DNA of 25,706 nt, from the IMG/VR virus record IMGVR_UViG_3300044630_007489, positions 1 to 25,706 of that record. One strand, given 5' to 3'. How positions within the stretch are numbered: the first letter of the stretch is position 1; each line of letters begins with the position of its first letter. The stretch is from a virus. A program made the translations under genes and the position numbers. Positions 5,879 through 25,631 of this stretch are shown one piece after another. The notes below the pieces were generated by a model. That model made no database searches. It saw only the letters and a program-made list of their open reading frames with translations, and had not been told where the DNA came from.

Positions 5879-5904
5879 GTTCGCTTTTTGCCGCTTGGGG
5901 AAGT

Positions 5905-5910: not shown

Positions 5911-5950
5911 AGTAATTACCCCTAGCAATAACCGTACCTAGGAGATAATC

Positions 5951-6834: not shown

Positions 6835-6844
6835 AAAGGAGAAA

Positions 6845-6871: not shown

Positions 6872-6983
6872 GTTTCCCCCTAAGGTAGCGCTTAGATCTG
6901 CTACACTGTTAATTGAACTTTTCCGGCGTAACTATTTTCCTTTCAGACTTTACGCTCCGGATGTGGCCAATGCTCGTGTGTCG

Positions 6984-7202: not shown

Positions 7203-7297
7203 TCCCGGCTCCTATCTTTTGCTCATTCTTCCGGAAATAAAACCAGAAGCCCACATTGTTACCAACAATACGAAGATAACAATTCTTTGTTTCATTG

Positions 7298-7549: not shown

Positions 7550-8079
7550 GCAGCGCCAGGCTTAGGGAGTGCGCGCCAGGCTGCCTCGAACTTTACTGCG
7601 TCTTTTGCCATTTCAGGATCAAGCTCAAGGTGAATCCACATGCCGCCCTGCGAGCCAGCGTTGTCCTTGGCATTGTAAATCTTTACACCTTTTTCGCCTT
7701 CACCACGTGAGCAGCGGAATCCACGTCCCCAGCCTGGCTTTTTGTCTGTTACATCAGCGTCAAACGCGTAGTCGTGAATCTCAACAATGCCGAGCTCCTT
7801 CGAGTACTTAAGGAACCAGTCCCACATTTCTACGCCTGTTGCACGCTTCGCGTATCCAACGTCACAAGCCGCGCCAGTTGCGTGAACGCTGAGGAACTTG
7901 TCCATTCCTGGGTCAGACGCTTTCTTGCCAGCAGTCTGCGAGTTGCGCATAAGACGATTTGCGTAGATGCCCATGTTTTTTGTCTTCCAACGCTTACCGC
8001 AGAGCTCTACAAGCTTCTCGGTCCCCGGCTGGGCTTTCTTTCCGTCAAACGATGGGTAGTATGGGTATTTGCGTGGCAT
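7546..8079 (-). CDS. M15/VanY-type peptidase endolysin
   Basis: A 177-residue protein with the zinc-site pattern of D,D-carboxypeptidase/L-alanyl-D-glutamate endopeptidases of the M15 and related families: S-x-H-x-x-G-x-A-x-D as SVHATGAACD (H66, D73) and a second histidine in MWIHLEL (H150). It would cleave peptide cross-links or stem peptides of host peptidoglycan. No signal peptide and no separate wall-binding domain are present, so release depends on the holin encoded immediately downstream. The ATG has GGAG 8 bases upstream and a TATAAT at 8114-8119. The catalytic pattern is clear; exact bond specificity is not. Confidence 0.87.
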   Translation of the reverse strand: MPRKYPYYPSFDGKKAQPGTEKLVELCGKRWKTKNMGIYANRLMRNSQTAGKKASDPGMDKFLSVHATGAACDVGYAKRATGVEMWDWFLKYSKELGIVEIHDYAFDADVTDKKPGWGRGFRCSRGEGEKGVKIYNAKDNAGSQGGMWIHLELDPEMAKDAVKFEAAWRALPKPGAA

Positions 8080-8113
8080 AATAGATCACTCCGTGTGCTA
8101 GGGATTAAGTAGA

Positions 8114-8119
8114 ATTATA
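8114..8119 (-). promoter_or_regulatory. -10 element for the lysis cassette
   Basis: On the minus strand TATAAT lies 35 bases before the endolysin ATG, leaving room for a leader of about 28 bases with the GGAG site. No good -35 hexamer is seen at 16 to 18 bases. A rightward -10 lies 34 bases away, making this a divergent promoter pair. Confidence 0.5.
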
Positions 8120-8152
8120 GCTCGCTTCTTTAGCCTTCATTTCCAACTGCAG

Positions 8153-8158
8153 TATAGA
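8153..8158 (+). promoter_or_regulatory. -10 element of a likely leaderless transcript
   Basis: TATAGA ends 8 bases before ATG 8167, and no ribosome binding site is present. Transcription would start at or within a base or two of the start codon. Confidence 0.5.
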
Positions 8159-8166
8159 ATGTCCTA

Positions 8167-8967
8167 ATGAAGTCTCACCCGTATTTTGGAATCAGTGACA
8201 GGGTTGTAGATGTGGCGAAGCCTTTATTGAATAATAGTGGTGATTACCATATGACTCATAGCGCTAGACTAGCGAGAACTGCTGAGATCCTGACAGGGCT
8301 GGTAGAGGAGGCGGGAGAAAACTGCCGAATTCTTGAACTTGGGACCAGCAGCTTTTTTCCAGTTTTTTTAAAGTCACTTTTTCCGGGCGTCACTATTGAT
8401 GTAACTGACTACGACGGAGTTCGAAAAGAGGGAGAACGCCAAAGGGGTGTGGATGTGGCTGGGCAGTCTACAGTGGTGCGTGCGTTTACAGTCGATCTTG
8501 AGCACGATGTTTTGCCTGTTAAAGATGAAACATATGACATCGTCATTTGTTGCGAGGTTCTTGAGCATATGGAAATAGACCCAATGTTTATGCTCAGTGA
8601 GGTAAATAGAGTTCTAAAAACAAATGGAAAACTTCTATTGACTACGCCAAATGTTCTTAGTTCTCGCGCGTTTGTAAGAATCTTTGAAGGATATCCTCCG
8701 TACTTCTTTATGCAGTATCACAAGACGCGTGAGTATCATCGTCACAACTATGAGTACTCGCTTAAAGTTCTTTGGAGTACATTGAAATGTGCTGGATTCG
8801 AGCCATCGGTGTGGACGGAGGACTTATTTGAAGATTCGCGTCCTCATATTGTTGACAACTTAAACTACTTTGGATTTAAGGTTGCAAACACAGGAGATAA
8901 CTTAATTGCAATTGCTCCAAAGATATCTGGAGTTGTAGAAAGATATCCAAATGGTCTCTACGTTTAA
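8167..8967 (+). CDS. Class I SAM-dependent methyltransferase
   Basis: A 266-residue protein with a Rossmann-type methyltransferase core: motif I RILELGTSS (residues 54-62), an acidic residue after strand 2 (VTIDVTDYDG), FTVDLEHDVLPVKDE, motif IV YDIVICCEVLEHM (123-135) and the strand 5 segment GKLLLTTPNVLSS. This is the pattern of UbiE/small-molecule or glycan O-methyltransferases (Methyltransf_11/23) rather than DNA methyltransferases, as no NPPY or PCQ motif occurs. It lacks a ribosome binding site and has a -10 element close to the ATG. It overlaps the GH130-like gene by 17 bases, so the pair probably acts on the same carbohydrate-containing substrate; that is inference. Confidence 0.82.
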   Translation: MKSHPYFGISDRVVDVAKPLLNNSGDYHMTHSARLARTAEILTGLVEEAGENCRILELGTSSFFPVFLKSLFPGVTIDVTDYDGVRKEGERQRGVDVAGQSTVVRAFTVDLEHDVLPVKDETYDIVICCEVLEHMEIDPMFMLSEVNRVLKTNGKLLLTTPNVLSSRAFVRIFEGYPPYFFMQYHKTREYHRHNYEYSLKVLWSTLKCAGFEPSVWTEDLFEDSRPHIVDNLNYFGFKVANTGDNLIAIAPKISGVVERYPNGLYV

Positions 8968-9880
8968 AGATCTTGGCGGAGACATTAAGTACTTACGCCG
9001 ATTAGTAGACAAGGAAGTTAAAACATGGAGCGCATTCAACGCGTCTATTGGTGTGTCGGACTCTGGCTCATACGCCGTAGCTATCCGCTCGAGCAATTAC
9101 GTAATTCTTCCTCACGGAGAATTGCGCGTCACGACTGGTGGTCCGATACGAAACCAGGTATGGTTTGCAGAGTTAACCGACAGTCTAGAGCTAGAGAATC
9201 TGCGACAGATAGATTTCAGTCGGTGCGGAATGGACGTAACTCGTGGAGTAGAGGATCCTAAGCTGCTCTGGCGCGACAAGAAATGGATGTTTACCGGTGT
9301 TGTATTGGAAAGAAACATACCAGTTGCTCGCAATTGCTTGTGCTATCTAGATAAAAACGCGGAGTACGTTACTAAAATAGAAGTTCTTCCCGGGTACGAA
9401 ACAAAACGCGCAGAAAAAAATTGGATGACTGCCTATAAAAAACCAAAGAATTTTGACTACATATACGATGGAAATGGCATTGTAAGCAACGGTAGCGTTA
9501 TTCACCGTTTACGTGATAACGAGCGTACTTCTGCTCTTCGTGGGAACGCTCATCTTATTGAATTTGACGATGGCACTTACTTAGGGATAATGCATAATCT
9601 TTCAATTAAAAGATCTACTAGATTTTCCAACGAAACATTTGGGATGCAGGAGACAGTAATCAAAGACTACAATCATTTCTTTGTAAAATTTGATAACAAT
9701 GGCTGGGCTACGCATGTTAGTGAACCTTTTCAATTTGTATCAGAAGGCATTGAGTTCGCGGCAGGTATTGTTGCAAAAGATAGCGACTACGTTATTTCAT
9801 TTGGCAGAGAAGATATGTCTTGCAATTTAGCAATCATTAATCAAGAGACAGTTCACAAGATGCTGCATTCAATAGAATAA
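8951..9880 (+). CDS. GH130-like beta-propeller protein
   Basis: A 309-residue protein with hallmarks of five-bladed propellers of the GH130 phosphorylase type: GVEDPKLLWRDKKWMFTGVV (residues 99-118, with conserved E101/D102), RGNAHLIEFDDGTYLGIMH (197-215) and EGIEFAAGIV followed by YVISFGREDMSCNLAII (265-296). GH130 enzymes split beta-mannosides with phosphate. The final blade could also serve only as a glycan-binding fold. It begins inside the 3' end of the methyltransferase gene, indicating an operon. No signal peptide is visible, so it would act in the cytoplasm. Family call is from these motifs; substrate is unknown. Confidence 0.65.
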   Translation: MVSTFKDLGGDIKYLRRLVDKEVKTWSAFNASIGVSDSGSYAVAIRSSNYVILPHGELRVTTGGPIRNQVWFAELTDSLELENLRQIDFSRCGMDVTRGVEDPKLLWRDKKWMFTGVVLERNIPVARNCLCYLDKNAEYVTKIEVLPGYETKRAEKNWMTAYKKPKNFDYIYDGNGIVSNGSVIHRLRDNERTSALRGNAHLIEFDDGTYLGIMHNLSIKRSTRFSNETFGMQETVIKDYNHFFVKFDNNGWATHVSEPFQFVSEGIEFAAGIVAKDSDYVISFGREDMSCNLAIINQETVHKMLHSIE

Positions 9881-9883
9881 AAT
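9878..9883 (+). promoter_or_regulatory. Possible -10 element, leaderless Nei/Fpg gene
   Basis: TAAAAT ends 7 bases before ATG 9891 and overlaps the stop codon of the preceding gene. No ribosome binding site is visible before the ATG. Confidence 0.3.
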
Positions 9884-9890
9884 AAACTTC

Positions 9891-10685
9891 ATGCCTGAAG
9901 GACACACAATACGACATCTAGCAACAGTTCACTCCTATGGGTTTGTTGGTACGATTGTAGACGCTACTAGCCCGCAAGGTAGATTCACTGATGGCGCCGC
10001 TAGTATCAACGGTTCTATTATGACAGAGACAAGTGCGCACGGCAAGCATTTATTTCTGCACTTTGACGAAAAGATTCTTCATGTTCATCTTGGGTTGTAT
10101 GGGTGGTTTAAACTTCGTAAGTTTAAGAATCAAGAGCCAGGCGATTCAACAAGACTGCGCCTTTCTAACGGTGAGTACTTGTCAGATTTGTCTGGGCCAA
10201 CTGCATGCGAAATCTACACTTATCAGCAGATGCTAGATAAAAAAGCTAAACTTGGCCCGGACCCTATTCACGAAGACGCCGACCCTGAAAAGGCTTGGGC
10301 ACGAATTAGCAAGAGCAAAAAAACAATCGGTGGGCTGTTAATGGACCAAGCGACGATTGCTGGTATTGGAAATGTGTATCGTGCAGAGATCTTGTTTCTT
10401 AATAACCTTTCTCCATTTGTTTCTGGCAAAGATGTGCCGCGTGAAAAGTTTAACAGCATTTGGGACGACTCAGTTAGATTGCTCAAGCTTGGCGCAGAAG
10501 ACGGCAAGATAAAAACTGTCGATGAGAAGCACTTACAGATGCATGGCGTTGAATTACACGGTTGTACTCAATATAGCTATGTGTATAAAAGAACTGGCAA
10601 CTCTTGTTTACTTTGCAATCAAGCAGTTTTATCAGATACTCTTGACGGACGCACAGTCTATTGGTGCCCATCGTGTCAGAGATAG
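9891..10685 (+). CDS. nei: Fpg/Nei-family DNA glycosylase/AP lyase
   Basis: A 264-residue protein with the full set of Fpg/Nei features. The N-terminus is MPEGHTIRH, with the catalytic proline P2 and E3 exposed after Met removal. A lysine in AHGKHL (K52) matches the beta-hairpin lysine. The helix-two-turn-helix contains GNVYRAEILF (160-169), and a C-terminal zinc finger has C239, C242, C259 and C262. The PEGH start resembles Nei and actinobacterial Nei1/Nei2 more than Fpg (PELPE). It removes oxidised bases and nicks the abasic site. It sits between the GH130-like gene and the DUF3039 gene. The gene is complete and all key residues are present, so it is probably active; the symbol indicates the subfamily only. 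Confidence 0.9.
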   Translation: MPEGHTIRHLATVHSYGFVGTIVDATSPQGRFTDGAASINGSIMTETSAHGKHLFLHFDEKILHVHLGLYGWFKLRKFKNQEPGDSTRLRLSNGEYLSDLSGPTACEIYTYQQMLDKKAKLGPDPIHEDADPEKAWARISKSKKTIGGLLMDQATIAGIGNVYRAEILFLNNLSPFVSGKDVPREKFNSIWDDSVRLLKLGAEDGKIKTVDEKHLQMHGVELHGCTQYSYVYKRTGNSCLLCNQAVLSDTLDGRTVYWCPSCQR

Positions 10686-10894
10686 AGATAAAAGAAAACA
10701 CGCAGTTAAACATTTCGCCTGACGGTAATCACGACAAGTTTGCTCACTATGTTGACGAAGTTGAGGCTATGGAATCGTTTGTGTATGGCGTACCAATCAT
10801 GGCGCTGTGCGGGAAGATTTGGGTGCCATCGCGAGACGGAAGCAGTTATAACATCTGCCCAACTTGCAAAGAAATCTATAGTCAATTACATTGA
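10673..10894 (+). CDS. DUF3039-like zinc-knuckle protein
   Basis: A protein of about 73 residues matching the actinobacterial DUF3039 pattern: GNHDKFAHYVDE, then PIMALCGKIWVPSRDGSSYN and ICPTCKEIY. The conserved cysteines (ALCGK and CPTC) suggest a bound metal. It overlaps the 3' end of the glycosylase gene. The start is uncertain: GTG 10673, GTG 10664 and TTG 10661 are in frame and none has a strong ribosome binding site; 10673 gives the smallest overlap. Function of DUF3039 is unknown. Its presence is good evidence for an actinobacterial host. Confidence 0.75.
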   Translation: MSEIEIKENTQLNISPDGNHDKFAHYVDEVEAMESFVYGVPIMALCGKIWVPSRDGSSYNICPTCKEIYSQLH

Positions 10895-10916
10895 CAGTCA
10901 TTTCACCAAGTATAAT
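10891..10916 (+). promoter_or_regulatory. Promoter candidate for the ribonucleotide reductase gene
   Basis: TTGACA (10891-10896) and TATAAT (10911-10916) are both perfect consensus hexamers but are only 14 bases apart, shorter than the usual 16 to 18. A 36-base leader follows, with a GAGG ribosome binding site 9 bases before ATG 10953. The -35 hexamer overlaps the end of the DUF3039 gene. Confidence 0.5.
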
Positions 10917-10952
10917 TTATCTTTCTAATCATTTCAGTTTGAGGTTTTCACT

Positions 10953-13004
10953 ATGTCATCGCTATTTTCTTTTCGTATCAATGACGAATTTGTAGCGGGA
11001 TATAAAGATAAAAAAGCTCCGTTTGGCTATCGAGATGCTGCAGGAAACTCAGTTGGTGAAATCACTTTTCTTCGCACTTACTCTCGTTTAAAAGAAGACG
11101 GAACTAAAGAGACTTGGGTTGACGTCTGCGAACGAGTAATCAACGGAATGTATTCATTGCAAAAAGATCATTGCAAGTCGAGTCGTCTTCCGTGGAATGA
11201 TTCTAAAGCGCAAGCGAGTGCAAAGGAAGCTTTTGACCGCTTGTTCAATTTAAAGTGGACGCCGCCTGGTCGTGGGCTTTGGGTAATGGGTACGCCAATT
11301 GTAAACACTCAGAAAAACTCTGCTGCTTTGCAGAACTGTGCGTTTGTTTCAACTGCTGAAATGAATAAGCATAACCCAGCAAAACCATTTGCATTTCTTA
11401 TGGAAGCATCAATGCTTGGCGTTGGCGTTGGATTTGATGACAAGGGCGCAGACAAAGACTTTACAATTTACAAGCCACTTGACAATAAAGTTATTCTTCA
11501 AATCATTCCAGATACTCGCGAAGGTTGGGTTCAATCAGTAAGCGATTTGATTAACACTTACTTAAAGCCAGAGCAGACATCTCTTACATTTGACTACTCG
11601 CTTATTCGTTTAGCAGGCGAGCCAATTAGAACATTTGGTGGAACTGCTGCTGGCCCAGATCCTTTGATTATGTTGCATAACCATATTCATAGAATATTTG
11701 CTGGACGCGAAGGACAGAAACTTTCGCGCGTCGATATTGCTGATATCGGAAACCTTATCGGAGTATGCGTAGTATCTGGCAACGTTCGTCGTTCTGCTGA
11801 ATTGCTACTTGGTCGCCTTGGTGATGAAAGCTTTTTAAATCTTAAAAATGCTGCTGTGTATCCTGAGCGCAATTCGTATGACGCAGACTCTCCTGGTTGG
11901 GGTTGGATGTCTAACAACTCTGTTGAGACATCTGTTGGCCAAGATTTATCAAGTATTGTTGAAGGAATTTCTTTAAATGGAGAACCTGGTGTTATTTGGT
12001 TAGATGTATCGCGTAAGTATGGACGACTTGCTGACCCTGCTAACAATAAGGACTGGCGCGTTGCTGGATACAATCCTTGCGCAGAACAGTCACTTGAGTC
12101 GTACGAGTGCTGCACGCTTGTTGAGACATATCTAAACCGTCATGAAAATCTTGAAGACTACAAGCGCACGTTGAAGTTTGCTTATCTTTACGCCAAGACA
12201 GTGACGTTGTTGCCAACGCATTGGGAAGAGACAAACGCAATTATGCAGCGGAATCGTCGCATTGGCACTTCAATGTCGGGTGTTGCTAACTTTGCTGATC
12301 GTGTTGGTTTGCCTATTCTTCGTGAGTGGATGGACACTGGTTATAGCACTATTAAAAGCTATGACAATATTTACTCTGAATGGTTGGGTGTTCGCGAATC
12401 AATCAAGATGACAACAGTAAAACCTTCAGGTACTGTGTCTATTCTTGCTGGAGAGTCTCCTGGAGTTCACTGGACACCTGGTGGTAAATACTTTAACAGA
12501 GCAATTCGTTTCTCTAATGATGACCCAATGCTGCCATTATTTAAGATGGCGAACTATCGAGTTGAGCCTGCGTCAGAATCGCCAACTACAACAAGCGTTG
12601 TGTTCTTTCCGATTAAGTCTGATGCTGAGCGTGCTGAACGAGATGTAACAATCTTTGAAAAAATGTCACTTGCTGCTGTTGCACAAAGATACTGGTCAGA
12701 CAACTCTGTTTCTGTAACTATTTCATTCGACCCAGAAACTGAGTCACAGCACGTCGGAACTGTTCTACACATGTATGACGGTCAATTAAAAACTGTTTCA
12801 TTCTTGCCATCAGGAAACTTTACATATCCACAAATGCCTTATACACAAATCACCGAAGAAGAGTATAGAGAAGAAGGAGAGAATAAATTGTTCCCTATTG
12901 ACTTCTCTGGCGTTTACGCAGGAATGGCCGCTGACGCAATCGGAGAGTCGTATTGCACAACGGATTCTTGCGAGATTAAGTTTATTACCGAAAACAATAA
13001 GTAA
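10953..13004 (+). CDS. nrdJ: Adenosylcobalamin-dependent ribonucleoside-triphosphate reductase (class II)
   Basis: A 683-residue class II reductase of the monomeric RTPR type (Lactobacillus leichmannii family). Visible key residues: C129 in LQNCAFVST, the NPCAEQ motif with thiyl-radical cysteine C376 and glutamate E378, C387 in YECCTLVE eleven residues later, the VKPSGTVSILAG segment, and the C-terminal shuttle pair C668/C673 in SYCTTDSCEIK. It reduces ribonucleoside triphosphates using B12 and thioredoxin-like reductants, needs no oxygen, and would supply dNTPs for phage replication. The distance between the first two active-site cysteines (247) is shorter than in the L. leichmannii enzyme (289), suggesting loss of part of an insertion. 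It is followed 2 bases later by a WhiB gene. Confidence 0.95.
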   Translation: MSSLFSFRINDEFVAGYKDKKAPFGYRDAAGNSVGEITFLRTYSRLKEDGTKETWVDVCERVINGMYSLQKDHCKSSRLPWNDSKAQASAKEAFDRLFNLKWTPPGRGLWVMGTPIVNTQKNSAALQNCAFVSTAEMNKHNPAKPFAFLMEASMLGVGVGFDDKGADKDFTIYKPLDNKVILQIIPDTREGWVQSVSDLINTYLKPEQTSLTFDYSLIRLAGEPIRTFGGTAAGPDPLIMLHNHIHRIFAGREGQKLSRVDIADIGNLIGVCVVSGNVRRSAELLLGRLGDESFLNLKNAAVYPERNSYDADSPGWGWMSNNSVETSVGQDLSSIVEGISLNGEPGVIWLDVSRKYGRLADPANNKDWRVAGYNPCAEQSLESYECCTLVETYLNRHENLEDYKRTLKFAYLYAKTVTLLPTHWEETNAIMQRNRRIGTSMSGVANFADRVGLPILREWMDTGYSTIKSYDNIYSEWLGVRESIKMTTVKPSGTVSILAGESPGVHWTPGGKYFNRAIRFSNDDPMLPLFKMANYRVEPASESPTTTSVVFFPIKSDAERAERDVTIFEKMSLAAVAQRYWSDNSVSVTISFDPETESQHVGTVLHMYDGQLKTVSFLPSGNFTYPQMPYTQITEEEYREEGENKLFPIDFSGVYAGMAADAIGESYCTTDSCEIKFITENNK

Positions 13005-13006
13005 GT

Positions 13007-13339
13007 ATGACAACACAAAAGGTGAATATTACCCCTGTTCAAGGTGACACAGCCTGGGCTATTCATGGTGAATGCAGAGGACTTACTGCGCTGTTTTTTG
13101 GTGAACTAAAAGAAAAAGAGCATGCTCGTGCGCAAAGAGAAGCTGCGGCAGTTGCTGTATGCAAGCAATGCCCTGTCATGCTGCAGTGCAGACAGTTCGC
13201 TAGAGAGAACCGTGAACTTGGTGTTTGGGGCGGAGAAACAGAAGACGAGCGATACTTTGCCGGGTTTCTTAAAAACCCAGATGTCGTAAGACGCAATAAA
13301 GCCCGAGAGACCAGGTCTAAACTAGCCAACACCCACTAA
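13007..13339 (+). CDS. WhiB-family iron-sulfur protein (first copy)
   Basis: A 110-residue WhiB-like protein. The four cluster ligands are C23, C52, C55 and C61 in the pattern C-x28-C-x2-C-x5-C, followed by the family turn GVWGGET (72-78) and a basic C-terminal tail (RRNKARETRSK). WhiB proteins bind a 4Fe-4S cluster and act on the host sigma factor to change transcription; phage copies can repress host whiB genes or block superinfection. The start codon lies 2 bases after the reductase stop, so translation is probably coupled. All ligands are intact. Confidence 0.95.
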   Translation: MTTQKVNITPVQGDTAWAIHGECRGLTALFFGELKEKEHARAQREAAAVAVCKQCPVMLQCRQFARENRELGVWGGETEDERYFAGFLKNPDVVRRNKARETRSKLANTH

Positions 13340-13340
13340 A

Positions 13341-13349
13341 TGCTAGAAT
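13341..13349 (+). promoter_or_regulatory. Extended -10 candidate upstream of the small ORF/holin-like pair
   Basis: TGCTAGAAT fits an extended -10 (TGn plus TAGAAT) immediately after the WhiB stop codon. No clear -35. It would drive the 36-residue frame at 13387 and the membrane protein at 13512. Confidence 0.4.
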
Positions 13350-13386
13350 GCAATTAGGGAGAGGGCTGCCTACCAAGGAGCTCTCA

Positions 13387-13497
13387 GTGCAGTTTAAGAA
13401 AGTTTTGTCACAATTGCTTGTGGACACTTGTCTGTGCAGACCAGAGCATACTCACTTTACGTTATTTAATACGCGCGTCGGCAGCAGAAAGCGATAA
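13387..13497 (+). CDS. Small protein with strong RBS
   Basis: A 36-residue frame from GTG 13387, with AAGGAG (13375-13380) 6 bases upstream, ending at TAA 13495-13497. It encodes (M)QFKKVLSQLLVDTCLCRPEH and 16 further residues ending in a basic GSRKR. No family is recognised. It fills the gap between WhiB 1 and the holin-like gene. The ribosome binding site is the main support. Confidence 0.4.
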   Translation: MQFKKVLSQLLVDTCLCRPEHTHFTLFNTRVGSRKR

Positions 13498-13511
13498 CCA
13501 AGGAGTATACA

Positions 13512-13754
13512 ATGGAGCAAACAAAACAAATCATCTGGAGAATTGTTGCAACGTTTGCAGCAACCGGTCTTAGCGTCGTTGGCGCTGGAGCGATTGTAGA
13601 CGTTCCACTTATTAAGGCTGTTCTAATGGCTGGTATCGGTGGAGTTGCGTTCGTAGTTGAAGGTCTCGCAAGAGCGTACATGGACGATGGCAAACTAACA
13701 ACAGCTGAGATTAACGAAGTCTTCCGAAAGGTAGACAAGAAAAAAGGCGAATAA
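13512..13754 (+). CDS. Holin-like two-helix membrane protein
   Basis: An 80-residue protein with two hydrophobic segments (IVATFAATGLSVVGAGAIV, about 11-29, and LIKAVLMAGIGGVAFVVEGL, about 33-52) and a charged C-terminus with the motif DDGKLTTAEINEVFRKVD. Two short spans and a charged tail of this type are common among actinophage holin or lysis-associated membrane proteins. AAGGAG lies 8 bases before the ATG. It is flanked by two WhiB genes rather than by the endolysin. Confidence 0.65.
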   Translation: MEQTKQIIWRIVATFAATGLSVVGAGAIVDVPLIKAVLMAGIGGVAFVVEGLARAYMDDGKLTTAEINEVFRKVDKKKGE

Positions 13755-13762
13755 GGTAGACG

Positions 13763-14047
13763 TTGAAGATCACGTGGATGAATGAAGCAAATTGTAAAAA
13801 GAAGACAAATCTTTTTTATATAGCACTAGATGAAACCGCTACTCAGCGAAGAAAACGTGAAGCTCTAGCAAAGGCGATATGCAAATCATGCTCTGTTATC
13901 GGCCCATGCAGAGACTACGCTCGAGCTAACAATGAACTTGGCATATGGGGAGGCGAAACCGAAGAAGAAAGATTCTTTGGTGGCTATCTTAACAGTCCTG
14001 TGGTGAACAAACGTCTTGCTCGAATGCGTCGTCGTCTTGAGCGTTAG
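13763..14047 (+). CDS. WhiB-family iron-sulfur protein (second copy)
   Basis: A 94-residue WhiB-like protein with ligands C11, C40, C43 and C49 and the turn GIWGGETEEERFFGGYL (60-76), close to the first copy over this part. The start is TTG 13763 with AAGG 6 bases upstream; ATG 13778 is possible. The N-terminus is about 12 residues shorter than in the first copy and the tail ends in RMRRRLER. The two genes are 420 bases apart and probably paralogues from duplication or separate acquisition; they could recognise different sigma partners or promoters. Confidence 0.93.
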   Translation: MKITWMNEANCKKKTNLFYIALDETATQRRKREALAKAICKSCSVIGPCRDYARANNELGIWGGETEEERFFGGYLNSPVVNKRLARMRRRLER

Positions 14048-14108
14048 TCTCTCCTTGCCACGCTAAGGCTCGTAAAACTGCATTGCGCATTTCTTCAAAG
14101 TCTGGCAT
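13989..14108 (-). CDS. Small protein overlapping the WhiB 2 3' end in antisense
   Basis: A 39-residue frame, MPDFEEMRNAVLRALAWQGE and 19 more, starting 2 bases after the stop of the upstream minus-strand gene and ending inside WhiB 2 on the opposite strand (about 59 bases of overlap). The first 20 residues form a plausible amphipathic helix. There is no strong ribosome binding site; translation could be by coupling. Confidence 0.3.
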   Translation of the reverse strand: MPDFEEMRNAVLRALAWQGETNAQDDDAFEQDVCSPQDC

Positions 14109-14110
14109 TG

Positions 14111-14308
14111 CTATTCGTCGTCAATGTTGACTTTTGTTCTTGTGACTGTAAAAGTGCGCATCGCAAGTTTAGACAGCAATTTCTTATCTTGCTCCAAGCG
14201 AGCAACATGCTTTTTTAGATCTTTTAGATCTGGAGTAATCCACCAATGGTAAAAAGCTAAACCAGCTATTGAACCAAGGCATACTCCAGTTAGGAATCCT
14301 GTAAACAT
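14111..14308 (-). CDS. Single-span membrane protein with coiled coil
   Basis: A 65-residue protein with an N-terminal transmembrane helix (FLTGVCLGSIAGLAFYHWWI, residues 4-23) and a charged helical segment (LKDLKKHVARLEQDKKLLSK) that looks like a coiled coil. Its ATG follows directly on the stop of the upstream gene (TAAATG). The shape is like an inner-membrane spanin or a small lysis factor, but nothing in the sequence proves it. Confidence 0.6.
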   Translation of the reverse strand: MFTGFLTGVCLGSIAGLAFYHWWITPDLKDLKKHVARLEQDKKLLSKLAMRTFTVTRTKVNIDDE

Positions 14309-14560
14309 TTAGTCCTCTTTTTTGTGATTAAAAACAGTAGTCGCTCTGTCAATTGCTTGCCATAAGTCTGGCCATTCGTCGCGATGCTTTCGTGCTACGA
14401 AGTCTTGATACTTAGGCATTTTACCTTTATTTTCTATGGCAGCAAATATATCGCCGAACGCTCGTTCGTAGTTTTCAATTCTTTTCTTTAGTAAAAAATT
14501 AGCTACCCAGACTTTAACAAGTTGCTTTTGAAGTTGTTTTACTTTAGAACTGACAAGCAT
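14309..14560 (-). CDS. Hypothetical protein, helical
   Basis: An 83-residue protein with a basic helical N-terminus (SSKVKQLQKQLVKVWVANFL) and a mixed C-terminal half containing DEWPDLWQAIDRATTVF. No membrane span, Cys motif or known family is seen. It is the middle gene of a head-to-tail set with the HTH protein upstream and the single-span protein downstream, so it is presumably co-transcribed with them. Confidence 0.55.
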   Translation of the reverse strand: MLVSSKVKQLQKQLVKVWVANFLLKKRIENYERAFGDIFAAIENKGKMPKYQDFVARKHRDEWPDLWQAIDRATTVFNHKKED

Positions 14561-15028
14561 TTAGTCTATAAGATAAGCGTGACGCTGCACGCCGTAGTAC
14601 AGTGGGCCTGCATTTGAAATGCCAAGACCTTTTGCAATTACAGATAGCGAAATACCATTTTTGTAGTACTCAATTGAAAGCTGTTCATGGTACTTTTCAG
14701 TACTAATTTTACGAGCTTCTTGCACTCGTGCTACAGCTTCTTCTGCTACGTTTGGGTCTAGCTTTGTGCGAGCGTTTTTATTGTTCATTGCTGGCAATGA
14801 AGCGGTCATCACACGGCGGCGGAGGCCTGAATACGATACTTCAAGTTCTGCAGACAAATGAATAAGACTTCCCTTATTTTCTACAAATTCAACAAGAAGT
14901 TTTGTGTATTCTCTGCTCGCTTGATGCGCTGGTGTGTTTTGCGTTTTTGAGCCATACGCTTTATGCGCCAGTGGCATTAGCGGGCGTATTTTTTCAGCGT
15001 ATTGCTGAGTGATTGCAGTGTTTTTCAT
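14561..15028 (-). CDS. DNA-binding protein with two HTH-like segments
   Basis: A 155-residue protein with two possible helix-turn-helix regions: GSLIHLSAELEVSYSGLRRR (residues 53-72) and GISLSVIAKGLGISNAGPLY (about 125-144). Between them is a charged helical linker. The pattern resembles phage regulators or Sigma70 region 4-like folds, without a recognised family. The ATG is preceded by GGAAAAG and by a TATAAT about 40 bases upstream. It heads an operon of small proteins, so it may regulate its own transcription. Confidence 0.65.
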   Translation of the reverse strand: MKNTAITQQYAEKIRPLMPLAHKAYGSKTQNTPAHQASREYTKLLVEFVENKGSLIHLSAELEVSYSGLRRRVMTASLPAMNNKNARTKLDPNVAEEAVARVQEARKISTEKYHEQLSIEYYKNGISLSVIAKGLGISNAGPLYYGVQRHAYLID

Positions 15029-15066
15029 ATCTTTTCCTATGTAATGTGTCAGGGGGTGACTAATTC

Positions 15067-15072
15067 ATTATA
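15067..15072 (-). promoter_or_regulatory. -10 element upstream of the HTH operon
   Basis: On the minus strand TATAAT lies 38 bases before ATG 15028, in an AT-rich gap between the nucleotidyltransferase stop and the HTH gene. No clear -35 is visible. Confidence 0.45.
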
Positions 15073-15099
15073 CACATAATAAGTTATAAAAGGTGAAAG

Positions 15100-15768
15100 T
15101 TAGACAGATTTCTTTGTACGAGACTTTTTGCGATGCGCTTCCCAGATTTCAAGATCTTCTGGGAAGTCAAAGTCTTCTGTCCAGTCGTTGATCTCGATGA
15201 AATGAGGATTGTTAAATAGACCGTTTGCTGTTGTGCCAATCATGTAAGTGTACAGCGCCCAGCCTGCCTGCCGTTGAGCTTGCGCCATTGACACAAGATA
15301 CAGTAGATTTTGACCAATAGTTTGTGCCATTGTTTGATCAAACGACAGCGCAAAGATTTCTTTCCAGCGAGCGCCTGTTTCTTCGTTTGGCCCAGTGCGA
15401 AGGAAGAACTTAAAAGGATTCTTTTCACGCATGATTGTTTTTACAGCTTCACTCGTGAAGTACACATCGCCAAAAACTAAAACTGTACGGCCGTCGTTCA
15501 GCCACAGATTCTTAGATGACAAGAACTTTGATGCGTCTTTCCAGTGAGTGTTCTGCGCCTTGATGACATAAAGACTTGTACCTTCAACTTGGTATCTGTT
15601 ATCTAATCCGATAACACAGACATCGTCGGTGTACTTTAAGAACTGCTCACATGTGCGCTCTAGAAGTACTTTTCCTTCTACCTTTGTTAGGTGCTTTGGC
15701 GTACCGCGAAAGTTGTCCCAGCGCTCACTAGCACCGGCGGCTAGAATGATTACGCGTGGTTTTACCAT
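15100..15768 (-). CDS. MobA-like/sugar nucleotidyltransferase
   Basis: A 222-residue protein with the nucleotide-binding signature of NTP transferases near its N-terminus (VIILAAGASERW at 6-17, then TPKHLTKVEGKVLLERT with K25). A metal-binding aspartate lies in VLVFGDVYF (D101), and a second acidic motif is in INDWTEDFDFPEDLEIWE (193-210). Such enzymes make NDP-sugars or CDP-alcohols, or transfer nucleotides to cofactors. With the phage glycosyltransferase and GH130-like genes, sugar activation is a plausible role. A TATAAT lies 6 bases before the ATG and no ribosome binding site is present, indicating a leaderless mRNA. Confidence 0.85.
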   Translation of the reverse strand: MVKPRVIILAAGASERWDNFRGTPKHLTKVEGKVLLERTCEQFLKYTDDVCVIGLDNRYQVEGTSLYVIKAQNTHWKDASKFLSSKNLWLNDGRTVLVFGDVYFTSEAVKTIMREKNPFKFFLRTGPNEETGARWKEIFALSFDQTMAQTIGQNLLYLVSMAQAQRQAGWALYTYMIGTTANGLFNNPHFIEINDWTEDFDFPEDLEIWEAHRKKSRTKKSV

Positions 15769-15774
15769 ACATTT

Positions 15775-15780
15775 ATTATA
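15775..15780 (-). promoter_or_regulatory. -10 element of a likely leaderless transcript
   Basis: A perfect TATAAT on the minus strand ends 6 bases before ATG 15768, so the transcript would begin at the start codon. Confidence 0.55.
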
Positions 15781-15784
15781 CGCC

Positions 15785-16030
15785 TCAAGGCTCTATAAAA
15801 ATGCATTCTCCTGGGCATTCTTCTGCTGACTCAATTACGTCACTAAGTCTGTCGTCTGAAAAAGACGCTAAACCGGCTGCACCCTCTGGGTTGCCCACAG
15901 CGGAGCAAAATATCTTGTCGCCTTCTTTTACGTAAGCCAGACCGTCGTCCATCATCGTAAATACATCTGGTGCTATCTCTGCGCACAGCCCGTCGCCAGT
16001 GCATAGGTCTTGGTCAATCCAAACTTTCAT
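15785..16030 (-). CDS. Ferredoxin, single-cluster (3Fe-4S type)
   Basis: An 81-residue ferredoxin of the actinobacterial type that pairs with cytochromes P450 and similar enzymes. Cluster ligands are C10 and C16 in LCTGDGLCAE, with aspartate D13 in place of the middle cysteine, and C72 in ECPGEC. This pattern typically holds a 3Fe-4S cluster. APDVF after the second ligand is also typical. Additional C42 and C76 occur outside the standard set. The length agrees with the family, although the segment between residues 40 and 60 has a small insertion. It would act as a one-electron carrier in the cytoplasm; no P450 or obvious partner is encoded in the window. No ribosome binding site is visible. 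Confidence 0.88.
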   Translation of the reverse strand: MKVWIDQDLCTGDGLCAEIAPDVFTMMDDGLAYVKEGDKIFCSAVGNPEGAAGLASFSDDRLSDVIESAEECPGECIFIEP

Positions 16031-16037
16031 AGTGACA

Positions 16038-16043
16038 ATACTA
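16038..16043 (-). promoter_or_regulatory. Possible -10 element of the ferredoxin gene
   Basis: On the minus strand TAGTAT ends 7 bases before ATG 16030, overlapping the stop codon of the upstream gene. It matches the leaderless arrangement of other genes in the window. Confidence 0.35.
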
Positions 16044-16238
16044 GTCCATGTCGTTCTTGGCCATTACACGAATGTAATGAACAAGAAGAGCCACGCCTGT
16101 TGCAATGATAGCAATCTTGCGCGTTTGACCTGAGAGGGTCACAAACACAACAGTGCTTCCTGCAAGGGTGAATGCCAAAGCGGCGGTCTCGTCTGCGAAT
16201 TTCTTAATGAATCCAATGGGGCTGAATTTTCTTTTCAT
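16041..16238 (-). CDS. Small two-helix membrane protein
   Basis: A 65-residue protein with a basic N-terminus (MKRKFSPIGFIKKF) and two hydrophobic helices (TAALAFTLAGSTVVFVTLSG and IAIIATGVALLVHYI), ending KNDMD. An AGGAG ribosome binding site lies 7 bases before the ATG, inside the 3' end of the surface-protein gene. It may be a partner or anchor for that protein, or another holin-like protein. No family recognised. Confidence 0.6.
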   Translation of the reverse strand: MKRKFSPIGFIKKFADETAALAFTLAGSTVVFVTLSGQTRKIAIIATGVALLVHYIRVMAKNDMD

Positions 16239-16240
16239 GG

Positions 16241-18829
<2,589 letters not shown>

Positions 18830-21198: not shown

Positions 21199-21270
21199 GC
21201 CCTCTTAGCTCAGTGGTAGAGCAACGCACTTGTAATGCGTAGGTCCTCGGTTCAATCCCGAGAGTGGGCT
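21199..21270 (+). tRNA. tRNA-Thr (anticodon TGT)
   Basis: Cloverleaf: acceptor GCCCTCT/AGTGGGC with one mismatch, D-stem GCTC/GAGC, anticodon stem ACGCA/TGCGT with loop CTTGTAA (anticodon TGT at 21231-21233), T-stem CTCGG/CCGAG with loop TTCAATC. No CCA is encoded. It reads ACA codons. Confidence 0.95.
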
Positions 21271-21340: not shown

Positions 21341-21413
21341 GCCGAGGTAGCTCAGTGGATAGAGCAAGAGCCTTCTAATCTCTTGGTCGCAGGTTCAATT
21401 CCTGCTCTCGGCG
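21341..21413 (+). tRNA. tRNA-Arg (anticodon TCT)
   Basis: Cloverleaf: acceptor GCCGAGG/TCTCGGC with a terminal G-T wobble at the base, D-stem GCTC/GAGC, anticodon stem AGAGC/TCTCT with the loop-proximal pair mismatched, loop CTTCTAA (anticodon TCT at 21374-21376), T-stem GCAGG/CCTGC with loop TTCAATT. No CCA encoded. It reads AGA codons, which are common in this window. Confidence 0.93.
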
Positions 21414-22163: not shown

Positions 22164-22841
22164 ATGACACTCACTGACTCAAACTTCTTCTTCTCAAGCA
22201 AGAGAGATCTCTATCTACGCCCTGAAACTTTTGACGACAGTGTAGCTGCAGAAGTCTCTGGCTACAAGTTGCTCAAACCCCGCGACGGTGGTACATTGCT
22301 TGACATTGGCGGCAACATTGGCGCAGTTTCACGTTGGTGGATGAAAAACGGCGGAGAAAGCGTAGTTGCTGTAGAGCCAGAGCCCGAGAACACACAGCTC
22401 CTCCGTAAGAACCTCGAAGAATTCGGCGATCGAGCCACAGTGTACGAAGCAGCAGCTGTAAATCGCGCCGCGCCAAAAACTCTAAGCCTATTTTTGAACA
22501 ACGGCATCAACAAAGGAGCTCACACAATCCGTGAGACTCGTGGTCGCGGTACAATTGAAGTACAAACGGTCCCTCTCTTCGATCTCATCGAACGCCACAA
22601 TCCCAACGCCGTGAAAATTGACATCGAAGGTGGAGAATTCCAGCTCATCGATGAAATCTTAAGTCTTCCACCCCAAGTAACGCGTTTCGCAATCGAATAT
22701 CACCTCAATCCAAAGGGTCACCGCGAAATGGGCAGAGATCTTGACGCTGCACTTCAGGCTCCCGAGCGCGGCTGGTCCCCAGTTCGTGGCACTGCGCTGA
22801 CAAGTTCCGCTTGGTATGTCATGCGAGTCTATCATCGATGA
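22164..22841 (+). CDS. FkbM-family methyltransferase
   Basis: A 225-residue SAM-dependent methyltransferase. Motif I is GGTLLDIGGNIGAVS (about 42-56), the SAM-ribose acidic residue lies in VVAVEPEPENTQLLRKNL, and the family motif VKIDIEGGEFQLIDEIL lies near residues 150-166. FkbM-type enzymes O-methylate sugars and natural products, and phage copies often accompany glycosyltransferases. It therefore may modify a glycan made with the upstream glycosyltransferase. The last 4 bases overlap the start of the next gene (ATGA at 22838-22841). Confidence 0.88.
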   Translation: MTLTDSNFFFSSKRDLYLRPETFDDSVAAEVSGYKLLKPRDGGTLLDIGGNIGAVSRWWMKNGGESVVAVEPEPENTQLLRKNLEEFGDRATVYEAAAVNRAAPKTLSLFLNNGINKGAHTIRETRGRGTIEVQTVPLFDLIERHNPNAVKIDIEGGEFQLIDEILSLPPQVTRFAIEYHLNPKGHREMGRDLDAALQAPERGWSPVRGTALTSSAWYVMRVYHR

Positions 22842-23743
22842 GCATTGAGCCGTTTGGCGGAGAACCAGAGGCAGAAAAGCCAGAGATTCAGATTGATGAA
22901 CCGATCAATCTGCGCCCGGTGCTTTCTGACATTGGTGTTGACGAAGTCGAACGAGGTATTTGCCAAGACACATACGAAAATCGTGCAATCTTACGAAGAA
23001 ACAAGATGGGCTGGGACCCAGTCTACGCTTCGAACGGCGTGCCAACAGGTCTAATCCAAGCACGATCTCCAGAAATGGACAAAGCTCGTAGACACTTAAG
23101 TCTTACCGAGAAAAAACCAATTCTTGTTGACCCTGATCGTACAAACTCAGATTATTTGACAGGCTATGATCTGTTAGCTGAAAGCGCGACGGACTATCTT
23201 GTGCCGCCCTGGGTGATCGGCGCAACAAAAGCCTATATAAAAGAACAAGAAGTTGGCGCTGAATCGTCTCGCCGGAAGCCAGCGGCCATGCCAACACGCT
23301 GTCGTGCCGTAAAGGACGACGGTATCCGCTGCATGCTCTGGTCTTCAGGACGCCCGAAAGATGACGGTTACTGCCGAGTACACTTAGGAAGCGTACAGAG
23401 AAAACCAGGCGAAGACATCGAGCGCGCGCGAATGAAGCTTACACAAGCTGCGCCATACGCCGTTGACGTTCTTGAAGAACTCATGGAAAACGCGTCAAGC
23501 GAACCGATTCGCCTAAAAGCATCAGCAGAAATATTAGATCGCGCTGGTGTACGGGGTGGAGTAGAGTTTGATGCTAATATCAACATCAATGACACACGGT
23601 CGCCAGCACAGATTGTTGCTGAGCGTCTGACTCGTTTAGCTTCAGGCGCGGCTGAAATCGCATCTAAGCTAACCGATGCCGGAATCATAATGCCAACCAA
23701 TGACGAAAGTGATATTCAAGATGCTGAGATCGTTGAGGGATAA
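22838..23743 (+). CDS. Small-terminase-like zinc-finger protein
   Basis: A 301-residue protein from ATG 22838, which overlaps the methyltransferase stop by ATGA. After a poorly conserved N-terminal half there is a zinc-binding block of the type C-x9-C-x13-C-x2-H (C155, C165, C179, H182) reading TRCRAVKDDGIRC, then DDGYCRVHLG. A helical part follows (QAAPYAVDVLEELMENASSE, then RLKASAEILDRAGVRGG). This CxxxxxxxxxC...GxxxCxxH plus helical layout occurs in actinophage proteins annotated as small terminase or terminase-associated. The acidic C-terminus (DESDIQDAEIVEG) is typical too. A small terminase recognises the packaging site. The large subunit is not in the window, so the assignment is tentative; a regulatory zinc-finger protein is the alternative. 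Confidence 0.6.
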   Translation: MSIEPFGGEPEAEKPEIQIDEPINLRPVLSDIGVDEVERGICQDTYENRAILRRNKMGWDPVYASNGVPTGLIQARSPEMDKARRHLSLTEKKPILVDPDRTNSDYLTGYDLLAESATDYLVPPWVIGATKAYIKEQEVGAESSRRKPAAMPTRCRAVKDDGIRCMLWSSGRPKDDGYCRVHLGSVQRKPGEDIERARMKLTQAAPYAVDVLEELMENASSEPIRLKASAEILDRAGVRGGVEFDANININDTRSPAQIVAERLTRLASGAAEIASKLTDAGIIMPTNDESDIQDAEIVEG

Positions 23744-23934
23744 TGACCGCGGAACATATAAAGAATCTCGCGCAGGAACTTGTCGAGCGTCTCAAGGCAG
23801 ACATTCTTCAAGCAGGGAATCGCGAGTCGCACATTCGTGCATCGGCACGCGCGAACGAAGCGGACTTACTTCTGCAAGGTCTAAATCAAATGTTCGATAC
23901 GAGCGTAGTAGATGACGATCTTCAAGAAGAATAA
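23743..23934 (+). CDS. Small acidic helical protein
   Basis: A 63-residue protein, MTAEHIKNLAQELVERLKAD onward, predicted almost entirely helical, with an acidic end (VVDDDLQEE). The start overlaps the preceding stop (TAATG) and the end overlaps the CHAP-like gene by 23 bases. Its size and tight coupling suggest a helper of the flanking genes. No family recognised. Confidence 0.65.
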   Translation: MTAEHIKNLAQELVERLKADILQAGNRESHIRASARANEADLLLQGLNQMFDTSVVDDDLQEE

Positions 23935-24706
23935 ATCAGACGTAAACCCTGACCGTGATCTATTTATAGAGACGGCGAAATCTCACCTTGGCTACAAGAC
24001 ACGGCCTTCCGGCCTTAGCGAGTTTGCAGTGCGGACGGGTTACCAAGGAGAGGCTATTCCATGGTCCGGCGCGTTTATTGATTGCGTGGCCCGCGATAGT
24101 GAAATATTTTTACCGGCCTGTGTTTACACACCTTCAGGCCTGGCAGAGTTTTCTGCAGACGGGTTGCTTGTACAGAGTCCTCAGCCTGGTGACATCGTGT
24201 TCTACTCGTTTCCAACGGCATCACAATTTGGCATGCCTCATTGTGGCATCGTGTCGGCCTCAGATGAATATGAGCAGACGGGCATGTTTACAGCAATTGA
24301 AGCTCAAGTAAGCTCAGGCCTGCCTAAGGCAAGTGCAGACCGTAACGGGGTGTTTGAACGTTCTCGTTGGAAATACGAAGTACTCGCGTTTGCTCGTCCA
24401 AAATTTTCACGCAGGCCTGCTACTGGAAATAAAAAGCAGACGGGTGACACTTTGATCAAACTGCAAAGCGTTCGCGTCGGTAGACAGAACCCATCAGTAC
24501 AAGTAATGCAAAACGCTTTAGTACTCTTGTGCGACTTACAAGACTATTCAGCCGGCGAGTTCGATGCGCGCACTCAACAGGCATACGCTCGATGGCAGAG
24601 AAAAATCGGATTTGTACATCCTGATTCAACAGGAATTCCAGATCTGTCGAGTCTTCGATTACTTGGTGAGGTCAGTGGACTTTTTGGTATAAAAGAAGAA
24701 AACTAA
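23912..24706 (+). CDS. CHAP/NlpC-like protein with wall-binding-like C-terminus; contains DNA repeats
   Basis: A 264-residue protein. The segment ETAKSHLGYKTRPSGLSEF, then IPWSGAFIDCVARDSEIFLP, and QPGDIVFYSFPTASQFGMPH with CGIVSA follows the CHAP/amidase layout (Cys-loop, then PGD-x-V, then H). The position normally held by the catalytic cysteine in PWCAAF is a serine (S52); H110 and a possible third residue E130 are present. Residues 193-250 resemble a peptidoglycan-binding helix bundle (PSVQVMQNALVLLCDLQDYS, TQQAYARWQRKIGF). It may be an endolysin with altered chemistry or a non-catalytic binding protein. Five copies of the CAGGCCTG...GCAGACGGG repeat lie inside the reading frame. No signal peptide is seen. 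Confidence 0.7.
   Translation: MTIFKKNKSDVNPDRDLFIETAKSHLGYKTRPSGLSEFAVRTGYQGEAIPWSGAFIDCVARDSEIFLPACVYTPSGLAEFSADGLLVQSPQPGDIVFYSFPTASQFGMPHCGIVSASDEYEQTGMFTAIEAQVSSGLPKASADRNGVFERSRWKYEVLAFARPKFSRRPATGNKKQTGDTLIKLQSVRVGRQNPSVQVMQNALVLLCDLQDYSAGEFDARTQQAYARWQRKIGFVHPDSTGIPDLSSLRLLGEVSGLFGIKEEN
24011..24039 (+). repeat. Bipartite repeat, degenerate copy 1
   Basis: GGCCTT (24011-24016) then GCGGACGGG (24031-24039), in frame within the CHAP-like gene. Both halves deviate by one or two bases from the consensus. Confidence 0.5.
24133..24163 (+). repeat. Bipartite repeat, copy 2
   Basis: TTCAGGCCTG (24133-24142), 12 bases, GCAGACGGG (24155-24163). Read as S-G-L...A-D-G in the CHAP-like gene. Confidence 0.85.
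24253..24282 (+). repeat. Bipartite repeat, copy 3 (left half degenerate)
   Basis: GTCGGCCTC (24253-24261), 12 bases, exact GCAGACGGG (24274-24282). Read in another frame than copy 2 (E-Q-T-G at the right half). Confidence 0.7.
24313..24350 (+). repeat. Bipartite repeat, copy 4 (right half interrupted)
   Basis: CTCAGGCCTG (24313-24322), 12 bases, GCAGAC (24335-24340) followed by CGTAA and CGGGG. The spacer CCTAAGGCAAGT resembles that of copies 6 to 8. Confidence 0.65.
24411..24444 (+). repeat. Bipartite repeat, copy 5
   Basis: GCAGGCCTGC (24411-24420, a 10-base palindrome), then GCAGACGGG (24436-24444); 16 bases separate CAGGCCTG from the right half. Read as R-P...Q-T-G. Confidence 0.85.
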
Positions 24707-24715
24707 AGAATATAG

Positions 24716-24721
24716 TATAAT
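24716..24721 (+). promoter_or_regulatory. -10 element upstream of the winged-helix-like gene
   Basis: Perfect TATAAT 25 bases before ATG 24747, directly after the CHAP-like stop codon; an AGGAGA ribosome binding site follows. No -35 recognised. Confidence 0.5.
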
Positions 24722-24746
24722 ACCAAACCTTACTACAGGAGACAAA

Positions 24747-25247
24747 ATGACAAAGACAAAAAAGCTACCCACACAAGCGCGAATTGCAATTCTTGCAAAA
24801 GGGCAGTCAACGCGAGACGCAGTATACGCTGCACTAGCATCTTCGGATCAACCGCTGATTGCTTTGGAAGTTAAGCAAAAGCTGGCGGCTCACAACATTC
24901 TGCTTGATACAAGTTATGTGCGATTGATTCTAAATCAACTTTGCGAAACTGGAAATGTTCGTACACGACTAGAAACGTTGACCGAGCGCGAAATTCGTAT
25001 GAACGGCCGCCAAGAAAACAGAGGCAAGCACCTTAACGTGCATTACTACTGGGCAGGACCCGGACGGTTCCCTGGCCGCACAAAAGCATCAGAGTTCTCA
25101 GGCCGCGAGAATCGCAACATCAAAAAGAACTTCAGGCCTGCTAAGCAAGTAAAAATGCAGACGGGCACCCCAGAGACACAAACTCTCATGCAGCGCGTTG
25201 CGTACCTCGAAGCAAAACTTGCAGAGATCCAAAAAACTCTCGGCTAA
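24747..25247 (+). CDS. Winged-helix-like DNA-binding protein; contains a DNA repeat
   Basis: A 166-residue protein. Residues 15-75 look like a winged helix: STRDAVYAALASSDQPLIAL, EVKQKLAAHNILLDTSYVRL and ILNQLCETGNVRTRLE, as in MarR/replication-terminator-like folds. The middle is basic and aromatic (GKHLNVHYYWAGPGRFPGR), followed by a basic linker (RENRNIKKNFRPAKQVKMQT) that is encoded by repeat copy 6, and a final coiled coil (TLMQRVAYLEAKLAEIQKTL). It has its own TATAAT and an AGGAGA site. Proximity to the repeats makes it a candidate for the protein that binds them; this is inference. No family is recognised with certainty. Confidence 0.7.
   Translation: MTKTKKLPTQARIAILAKGQSTRDAVYAALASSDQPLIALEVKQKLAAHNILLDTSYVRLILNQLCETGNVRTRLETLTEREIRMNGRQENRGKHLNVHYYWAGPGRFPGRTKASEFSGRENRNIKKNFRPAKQVKMQTGTPETQTLMQRVAYLEAKLAEIQKTLG
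25131..25165 (+). repeat. Bipartite repeat, copy 6
   Basis: TTCAGGCCTG (25131-25140), 16-base spacer, GCAGACGGG (25157-25165), inside the winged-helix-like gene near its 3' end. The preceding CAAAAAGAAC (25121-25130) is also shared with copy 8. Confidence 0.9.
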
Positions 25248-25250
25248 AAC

Positions 25251-25285
25251 TTCAGGCCTGCTAGGCAAGTAAATATGCAGACGGG
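25251..25285 (+). repeat. Bipartite repeat, copy 7 (intergenic)
   Basis: TTCAGGCCTG (25251-25260), 16-base spacer, GCAGACGGG (25277-25285), starting 4 bases after the winged-helix stop codon. First unit of a 50-base tandem pair with copy 8. Confidence 0.92.
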
Positions 25286-25300
25286 TCACTCAAAAAGAAC

Positions 25301-25335
25301 TTCAGGCCTGCTAGGCAAGTAAATAGGCAGACGGG
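25301..25335 (+). repeat. Bipartite repeat, copy 8 (intergenic)
   Basis: TTCAGGCCTG (25301-25310), 16-base spacer, GCAGACGGG (25327-25335). Over 40 bases it differs from copy 7 at a single position. It ends 5 bases before ATG 25341. Confidence 0.92.
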
Positions 25336-25340: not shown

Positions 25341-25631
25341 ATGTGTGATAGCGTGTATCGCATGATACATCTAGCGCTGTACGTTATTGAAGACCCAGAG
25401 GACGCGATTCTTGCAGGGAAAAACGATGTCTTTGACTTTGTCATAGACCATTCCGAATGTGAAAACTGTGGAATGGTTATTGGCCCGTCACTAGACACGT
25501 TCTTCCCCTGCATAGTTGTTGTTGACACTGATGATCGGCTTGATGTAGATCGGTGGGCGATATGCCTCGATTGCGCTGCACCTTTGCTTTATCCAAACGA
25601 ATGGATAATAAACCTAGAGCTTGGAAACTAA
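25341..25631 (+). CDS. Hypothetical protein with two CxxC pairs
   Basis: A 96-residue protein, MCDSVYRMIHLALYVIEDPE onward, with CENCG near residue 40 and CLDC near residue 76, likely a zinc site. The rest is acidic and mixed alpha/beta. No ribosome binding site precedes the ATG, which lies 5 bases after repeat copy 8; ATG 25362 is an in-frame alternative. It could be a small regulatory or nucleic-acid-binding protein. No family recognised. Confidence 0.6.
   Translation: MCDSVYRMIHLALYVIEDPEDAILAGKNDVFDFVIDHSECENCGMVIGPSLDTFFPCIVVVDTDDRLDVDRWAICLDCAAPLLYPNEWIINLELGN

Follow-up and report, generated by a model that had tools for sequence, protein, structure and literature searches.

One-directional two-part repeats at a conserved phage locus, putative binding sites of a phage-encoded regulator

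A stretch of viral DNA of 25,706 nucleotides (IMG/VR record IMGVR_UViG_3300044630_007489; hereafter, the window) carries a family of two-part repeats that run in a single direction through and beyond an endolysin gene. It is close to certain that these repeats are a real, conserved signal that is not a protein feature. We read them as asymmetric sites, each made of two parts, at which a DNA-binding regulator encoded by the phage would bind; the most plausible candidate for it is the winged-helix protein encoded at 24747. Judged from the sequences, we put the probability of this reading at about one half. The repeats occur in a widespread clade of uncultured actinophages of aquatic bacteria, on whose regulation these sites may bear.

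The repeat family in the window and its relatives

Each element consists of C[AC]GGCC[TC]G, about 19 bases and then GACGG[GA], and runs along the + strand. The window cluster extends from about 24003 to 25335, over the endolysin gene, the end of the winged-helix gene and the following gap (Table 1). The initial annotation, made from the sequence of the window, had reported at least six exact copies of one half and six of the other. Our counts agree and lie far above chance: the 3' word GCAGACGGG occurs at 24155, 24274, 24436, 25157, 25277 and 25327 (0.11 copies expected in the window; six copies reached in 0 of 100 shuffles), and the palindrome CAGGCCTG at 24135, 24315, 24412, 25133, 25253 and 25303 (0.37 expected), with no exact copy of either elsewhere in the window. 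The bipartite pattern is found six times on the + strand and not once on the − strand. The halves had also been described as paired in the same order with 12 or 16 bases between them, which is true of five exact pairs (gaps of 12, 16, 16, 16 and 16) and not of the sixth, since after the palindrome at 24315 comes GCAGACcgtaACGGG in place of an exact 3' half, and the exact GCAGACGGG at 24274 has as its 5' partner a degenerate CGGCCTC at 24252. A degenerate copy noted near 24011 has an intact version at the same place in close relatives, and the last two copies are, as described, non-coding and near-identical.

Table 1. Elements and genes of the conserved locus (window coordinates)
Feature	Position	Strand	Context and basis
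Element 1, degenerate (CGGCCTTCCGGCCTTAGCGAGTTTGCAGTGCGGACGGGT)	24003..24041	+	Endolysin gene; intact in L007 and L022; from sequence and relatives
Element 2, CAGGCCTG-N12-GCAGACGGG	24135..24163	+	Endolysin gene, read GLAEFSADG
Element 3, degenerate 5' half CGGCCTC plus exact GCAGACGGG	24252..24282	+	Endolysin gene
Element 4, CAGGCCTG-N12-GCAGAC, 3' end interrupted (SGLPKASADRNG)	24315..24350	+	Endolysin gene
Element 5, CAGGCCTG-N16-GCAGACGGG	24412..24444	+	Endolysin gene, read RRPAT..KQTG
Element 6, CAGGCCTG-N16-GCAGACGGG	25133..25165	+	3' part of winged-helix gene, read RPAK..MQTG
Element 7	25253..25285	+	Intergenic; first unit of 50-bp tandem pair
Element 8	25303..25335	+	Intergenic; second tandem unit; ends 5 bases before ATG at 25341
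Conserved locus-marker gene	22838..23743	+	Possible small terminase; in Microbacterium phages the homolog is gene 1, at the left end of the genome
Endolysin gene	23912..24706	+	PHROG endolysin matches, best E 4.9e-11; homologs in 32 related loci; hosts elements 1-5
Winged-helix protein with C-terminal coiled coil	24747..25247	+	AlphaFold model; PadR/Fur-type matches in PDB
Conserved small gene directly 3' of the cluster	25341..25631	+	Homologs in 25 related loci

To follow the family beyond the window, we used the 22838 gene as a query and found 58 loci among viral contigs; it also matched cultured Microbacterium phages and DSL-LC01, an Actinomycetia phage assembled from the metagenome of a Chinese lake. 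Elements were then counted in ten sequences, the window and nine relatives, totaling 622 kb, with the regular expression GGCC[TC]G-N14-22-GACGG and a zone set from -0.8 to +16.5 kb of the 22838 gene or its homolog. Among the 81 matches, which are not fully independent across the ten sequences because G001 and G002 are closely related, 77 fell on the + strand of the zone and one on its − strand; outside the zone there were one and two, respectively. A second-order Markov model predicts at most 0.25 matches per zone. Searching relatives on both strands, a check that the initial annotation had proposed, showed the motif to be non-random and to recur at the same locus; in most relatives, further copies are scattered over about 14 kb.

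A scan of 2.9 million viral contigs with a strict 33-bp form recovered the clade, including a new member (L122). Outside it, strict matches were few, about as many as expected by chance, and were isolated singles in the absence of the clade's genes. The regular expression matched nothing in Big4 or Pumpernickel and once each in Zooman and Cece. Tandem copies about 48-50 bp apart are present in the window, G001, G004, G007 and G013. The published account of one member genome does not mention the repeats, and in the literature on terminal-repeat or early-gene motifs in such phages we found nothing that matches them.

More distant relatives carry altered forms. L050 has CAGCCTG..GACGGG within its endolysin gene, and the sequences of the most distant relatives, L033-L048, suggest an [GA]ACGG variant. 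In L058 (8102-8570) and L031 (7841-8210), arrays of 6-8 units of 46-54 bp lie between the endolysin gene and the next gene, each in a single orientation (CAACCCGG..CGGG in L058, CAACCTG..CCGGAC in L031), and the next ~12 kb, other promoters included, hold no copies beyond the array. These compact arrays identify the cluster at the locus as the constant part of the family and the dispersed copies as the variable part. The L058 units contain inner dyads whose sequence varies, and they finish in runs of T; A or T runs come after the L031 units.

The gene order, 22838 homolog, small ORF, endolysin, winged helix and small ORF, is kept in most relatives. The 22838 protein is very conserved, with up to 83% identity in relatives and invariant Cys155, Cys165, Cys179 and His182. 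Its initial description as small-terminase-like agrees with one depositor's record (Cece), the only one to call the homolog 'terminase small subunit'. Pfam gives a match to DUF5763 only, and the AlphaFold model is too poor (mean pLDDT 51.7) to confirm a terminase by structure; in DSL-LC01, the annotated small terminase is a gene other than the 22838 homolog. The 24747 protein is modeled as one winged helix and a coiled coil, with a VIA Z of 11.1 to Zur and about 9 to PadR-type proteins in the PDB, and its homologs have weak winged-helix matches in Pfam. Foldseek returned no match to the model at an E value of 0.001 or better, and tblastn against annotated phages returned none for the protein.

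Conservation of the DNA word and its half-sites

The coding copies had been reported to lie in different frames, and GGCCTG indeed begins in codon phase 0 at two sites (24137 and 24317) but in phase 1 at two others (24414 and 25135). Aligning the endolysins of related phages revealed elements at four to six homologous places, where the 3' half encodes A-D-G in some phages and Q-T-G or R-R-x in others, and small length changes accommodate it. For example, the DNA word is kept in SGLAEFSADG of the window, SGLAEFSHSRR of L022 and SGLAELLRRRR of L019. Homologous positions combined with different frames of the 3' half indicate selection on DNA or RNA, not on protein, as the initial annotation had held; the opposite case, in which protein sequence alone explains the conservation, fails because the frames switch among relatives. 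An internal control points the same way. The FGRP peptide, conserved in the same endolysins, uses GGCC in 3 of 13 genes, and the RP at site 4 uses it in all 13. The signal is evidently strong enough that gene sequences accommodate it in changing frames.

Across 44 copies of the main clade, the 5' half is C[AC]GGCC[TC]G, followed by a purine-rich stretch and a variable spacer, and the 3' half is GCAGACGG[GA][CT]; the distance from GGCCYG to GACGG is mostly 19-20 bases, with a range of 14-22. Phages G004 and G007 mostly have ATGACGGG or TTGACGGG as the 3' half, DSL-LC01 has [AT]GACGG[TA], and G019 has CAGACGG or TGACGG. The 3' half is thus largely uniform within one phage and different between lineages, as expected if the copies share a trans-acting factor, and these lineage-specific forms offer a natural series for studying the co-evolution of a regulator and its sites.

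Promoter-proximal copies and a candidate regulator

Outside the endolysin and winged-helix genes, copies mostly lie between one stop codon and the promoter of the next gene. Of the 17 copies near a promoter, 13 stop 17-20 bases short of a TATAAT or TACAAT box and the remaining four stop 9, 26, 27 and 27 bases short of it; the common spacing puts the 3' half in the -35 region, and such a fixed distance to the -10 box is what an operator or a class II activator site would have. Two families of small genes recur downstream, MGL..YKxGKK and YFAxDGxYGDA..DTSxW, both of which are found in G004, G011 and G013 and one of which is found in G016 or G019.

We also considered whether the element is itself the promoter and rejected this, as a separate promoter consensus, TTCTAAAGAAGTTATAATG, occurs in about 40 copies, mostly without an element. 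In G011 (L071-L073), about 40 copies of TTCTAAAGAAGTTATAATG on one strand precede nearly every small gene between 13.7 and 35.2 kb, and the consensus is also present in G013. The window has two weaker promoter copies, near 24700 and 25625, with AAACTAAAGA followed by an A/T-rich -10.

The strand bias, the independence from reading frame, the lineage-specific halves and the promoter spacing are most simply explained by a trans-acting factor with a set orientation on its sites, and the presence of a winged-helix gene inside the cluster makes its product the natural candidate. We infer that this protein binds the sites, and that it does so on DNA rather than RNA. It would read both halves of an element in one orientation, its own gene carrying one of them, and once bound would have an effect that depends on the direction of transcription. 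Scattered copies at the -35 region of certain early promoters would then set promoter output, and the dense cluster in and after the endolysin gene would control or block transcription of the segment and of the regulator's own gene. Some features count against this reading, namely the spacer variation, which is unusual for a rigid DNA site, and the in-gene copies that have no promoter after them, which make up about half of all copies. The compact arrays of L058 and L031 would suit an origin, or one master control site, equally well.

Alternative functions and known systems

The initial annotation listed a packaging site, replication iterons, a partition site and regulator-binding sites as possible functions. 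The promoter positions, the two downstream gene families and the winged-helix gene in the cluster favor the last of these, packaging is weakened by the dispersal over about 14 kb, and the L058 and L031 arrays keep an origin or partition role in consideration. As an origin, the repeats would be iterons in a common direction at which an initiator, either the 24747 protein or the primase-helicase encoded at 2079-4727, starts replication. We consider this doubtful, though it is the main alternative. It would account well for L058 and L031, where 6-8 units, all pointing the same way and spaced 46-54 bp apart, make up a single array and none lies elsewhere nearby, and the D5-type primase-helicase matches Pox_D5 at its C-terminus, a region that is a winged helix in P4 alpha-type proteins. 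An origin inside an initiator gene is established in lambda, where the ori iterons lie in gene O; these, like the type I iterons of P4, form compact origins. The elements here resemble them in being same-direction repeats, partly within a gene and near the gene of a winged-helix protein, but most of these phages add copies that are spread over about 14 kb at a fixed distance before promoters, which an origin does not need. In addition, the cumulative GC skew of DSL-LC01 and G004, admittedly a weak test, has no turning point at the locus.

It is unlikely, in our estimate, that the elements act in the transcript, with the 5' half as a small hairpin and the 3' half beside it being bound by a protein or processed, on the model of nut-type antitermination sites or mRNA-stability elements. 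Such a function would explain at once why copies occur only on the transcribed strand, and is in line with the L058 units, whose inner dyads differ in sequence, and with a stem potential above that of shuffled sequences in the G004/G007/G019 group (z 4.7). However, no stem excess is seen in the main clade (z 0.7) or DSL-LC01 (z -1.5); support for the 5'-half hairpin differs from group to group. Moreover, 11 of 44 copies end in GACGGA, breaking the pairing between the halves with no compensating change, and the copies between genes are found 5' of promoters rather than where transcripts begin. Since the support for a hairpin is inconsistent and the GACGGA copies go uncompensated, a protein on double-stranded DNA is favored.

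The location of the locus in cultured phages raises the question of genome ends. In Microbacterium phages, the marker gene comes first in the genome (gene 1), with 62 bp between it and the physical end, and in Big4 an exact terminal repeat of 17,669 bp begins at the 22838 homolog (unique sequence, 174.7 kb). Big4 also contains a directional motif that has no relation to the elements here, TTT[AG]G[TC]G..CTT[GA]CGT, with 10 forward copies and one or two reverse ones (near 7996 and 9203); it spans 1205-16358, every copy lies inside the terminal repeat, mostly between the terminators of upstream genes and the next promoters, and the motif is also present in Zooman. These observations would suit sites that mark the left end of the terminal repeat for the terminase or help to duplicate the repeat. 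We nonetheless regard a packaging signal as quite improbable: the known pac and cosB sites are compact and adjoin the cut, whereas the sites here are 1-14 kb away and at promoters (compact only in L031 and L058), and G013 also has sites upstream of the marker gene. A broader idea, rather unlikely in our view, is that long-terminal-repeat phages mark the repeat with lineage-specific, one-way, two-part sites, such as GGCCYG..GACGG here, CAACCCGG..CGGG in L058 and TTTRGYG..CTTGCGT in Big4, so that it may be recognized, silenced or duplicated as a unit, and not for ordinary promoter control. The parallel motif in the cultured phage Big4 makes the idea of such one-way signals testable in a laboratory strain.

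Finally, the elements might be a short repeat family without function, spread by neutral or selfish local duplication, as the near-identical 50-bp tandem units in the window could suggest. This is highly improbable, being already contradicted by the conservation of positions between phages with only ~40% endolysin identity. The spacers are unrelated while both halves are fixed and frames switch, and strict matches elsewhere among the 2.9 million contigs are the isolated singles described above.

Among known systems, the stoperators of Cluster A mycobacteriophages are 13-bp single sites bound by a monomer of the L5/TipsytheTRex repressor with two domains; they are asymmetric, number more than 20 per genome, follow the direction of transcription, lie at promoters and in short gaps between genes, and are recognized by a phage DNA-binding protein whose specificity diverges between relatives (PMC9283540). 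The elements here are likewise asymmetric, numerous and oriented with transcription (77 against one on the opposite strand of the zone). They differ in having two halves around a variable spacer of about 19 bases and in being densest inside the endolysin gene within a zone of ~16 kb. The candidate proteins differ as well, since the stoperator repressor, which halts elongation when bound, combines an N-terminal HTH with a Stoperator domain, unlike the 24747 model. MotA of T4 binds at the -35 region of a chosen set of promoters, which still have a TATAAT box. Like its sites, most promoter-proximal elements here reach into the -35 region before a TATAAT-type box. MotA boxes are described at middle promoters (PMC6755090). 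They are single and do not cluster inside coding genes, in contrast to the two-part elements here, which are clustered in genes. On present evidence, the elements would work most like stoperators or MotA-box regulation while belonging to neither, as site structure and candidate protein differ. A further comparison is with repeats bound by small terminases. The R sites of lambda cosB are directional, near genome ends and compact beside the cut site; the elements here share the direction and, judging from Microbacterium phages, the nearness to genome ends but are spread over kilobases.

Elsewhere in the window, two tRNA genes (21199-21270 and 21341-21413) lie shortly 5' of the conserved locus, and an Rfam search over the window gave nothing beyond them. 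A large protein without a clear family, encoded on the − strand at 16241-18829, has long threonine runs that derive from GTA/ACT-type repeats. By eye and by synteny with DSL-LC01, we also recognized a serine-recombinase-like gene (5023-5712, − strand) and a WhiB-like gene (13007-13339), which are consistent with a phage of actinobacteria.
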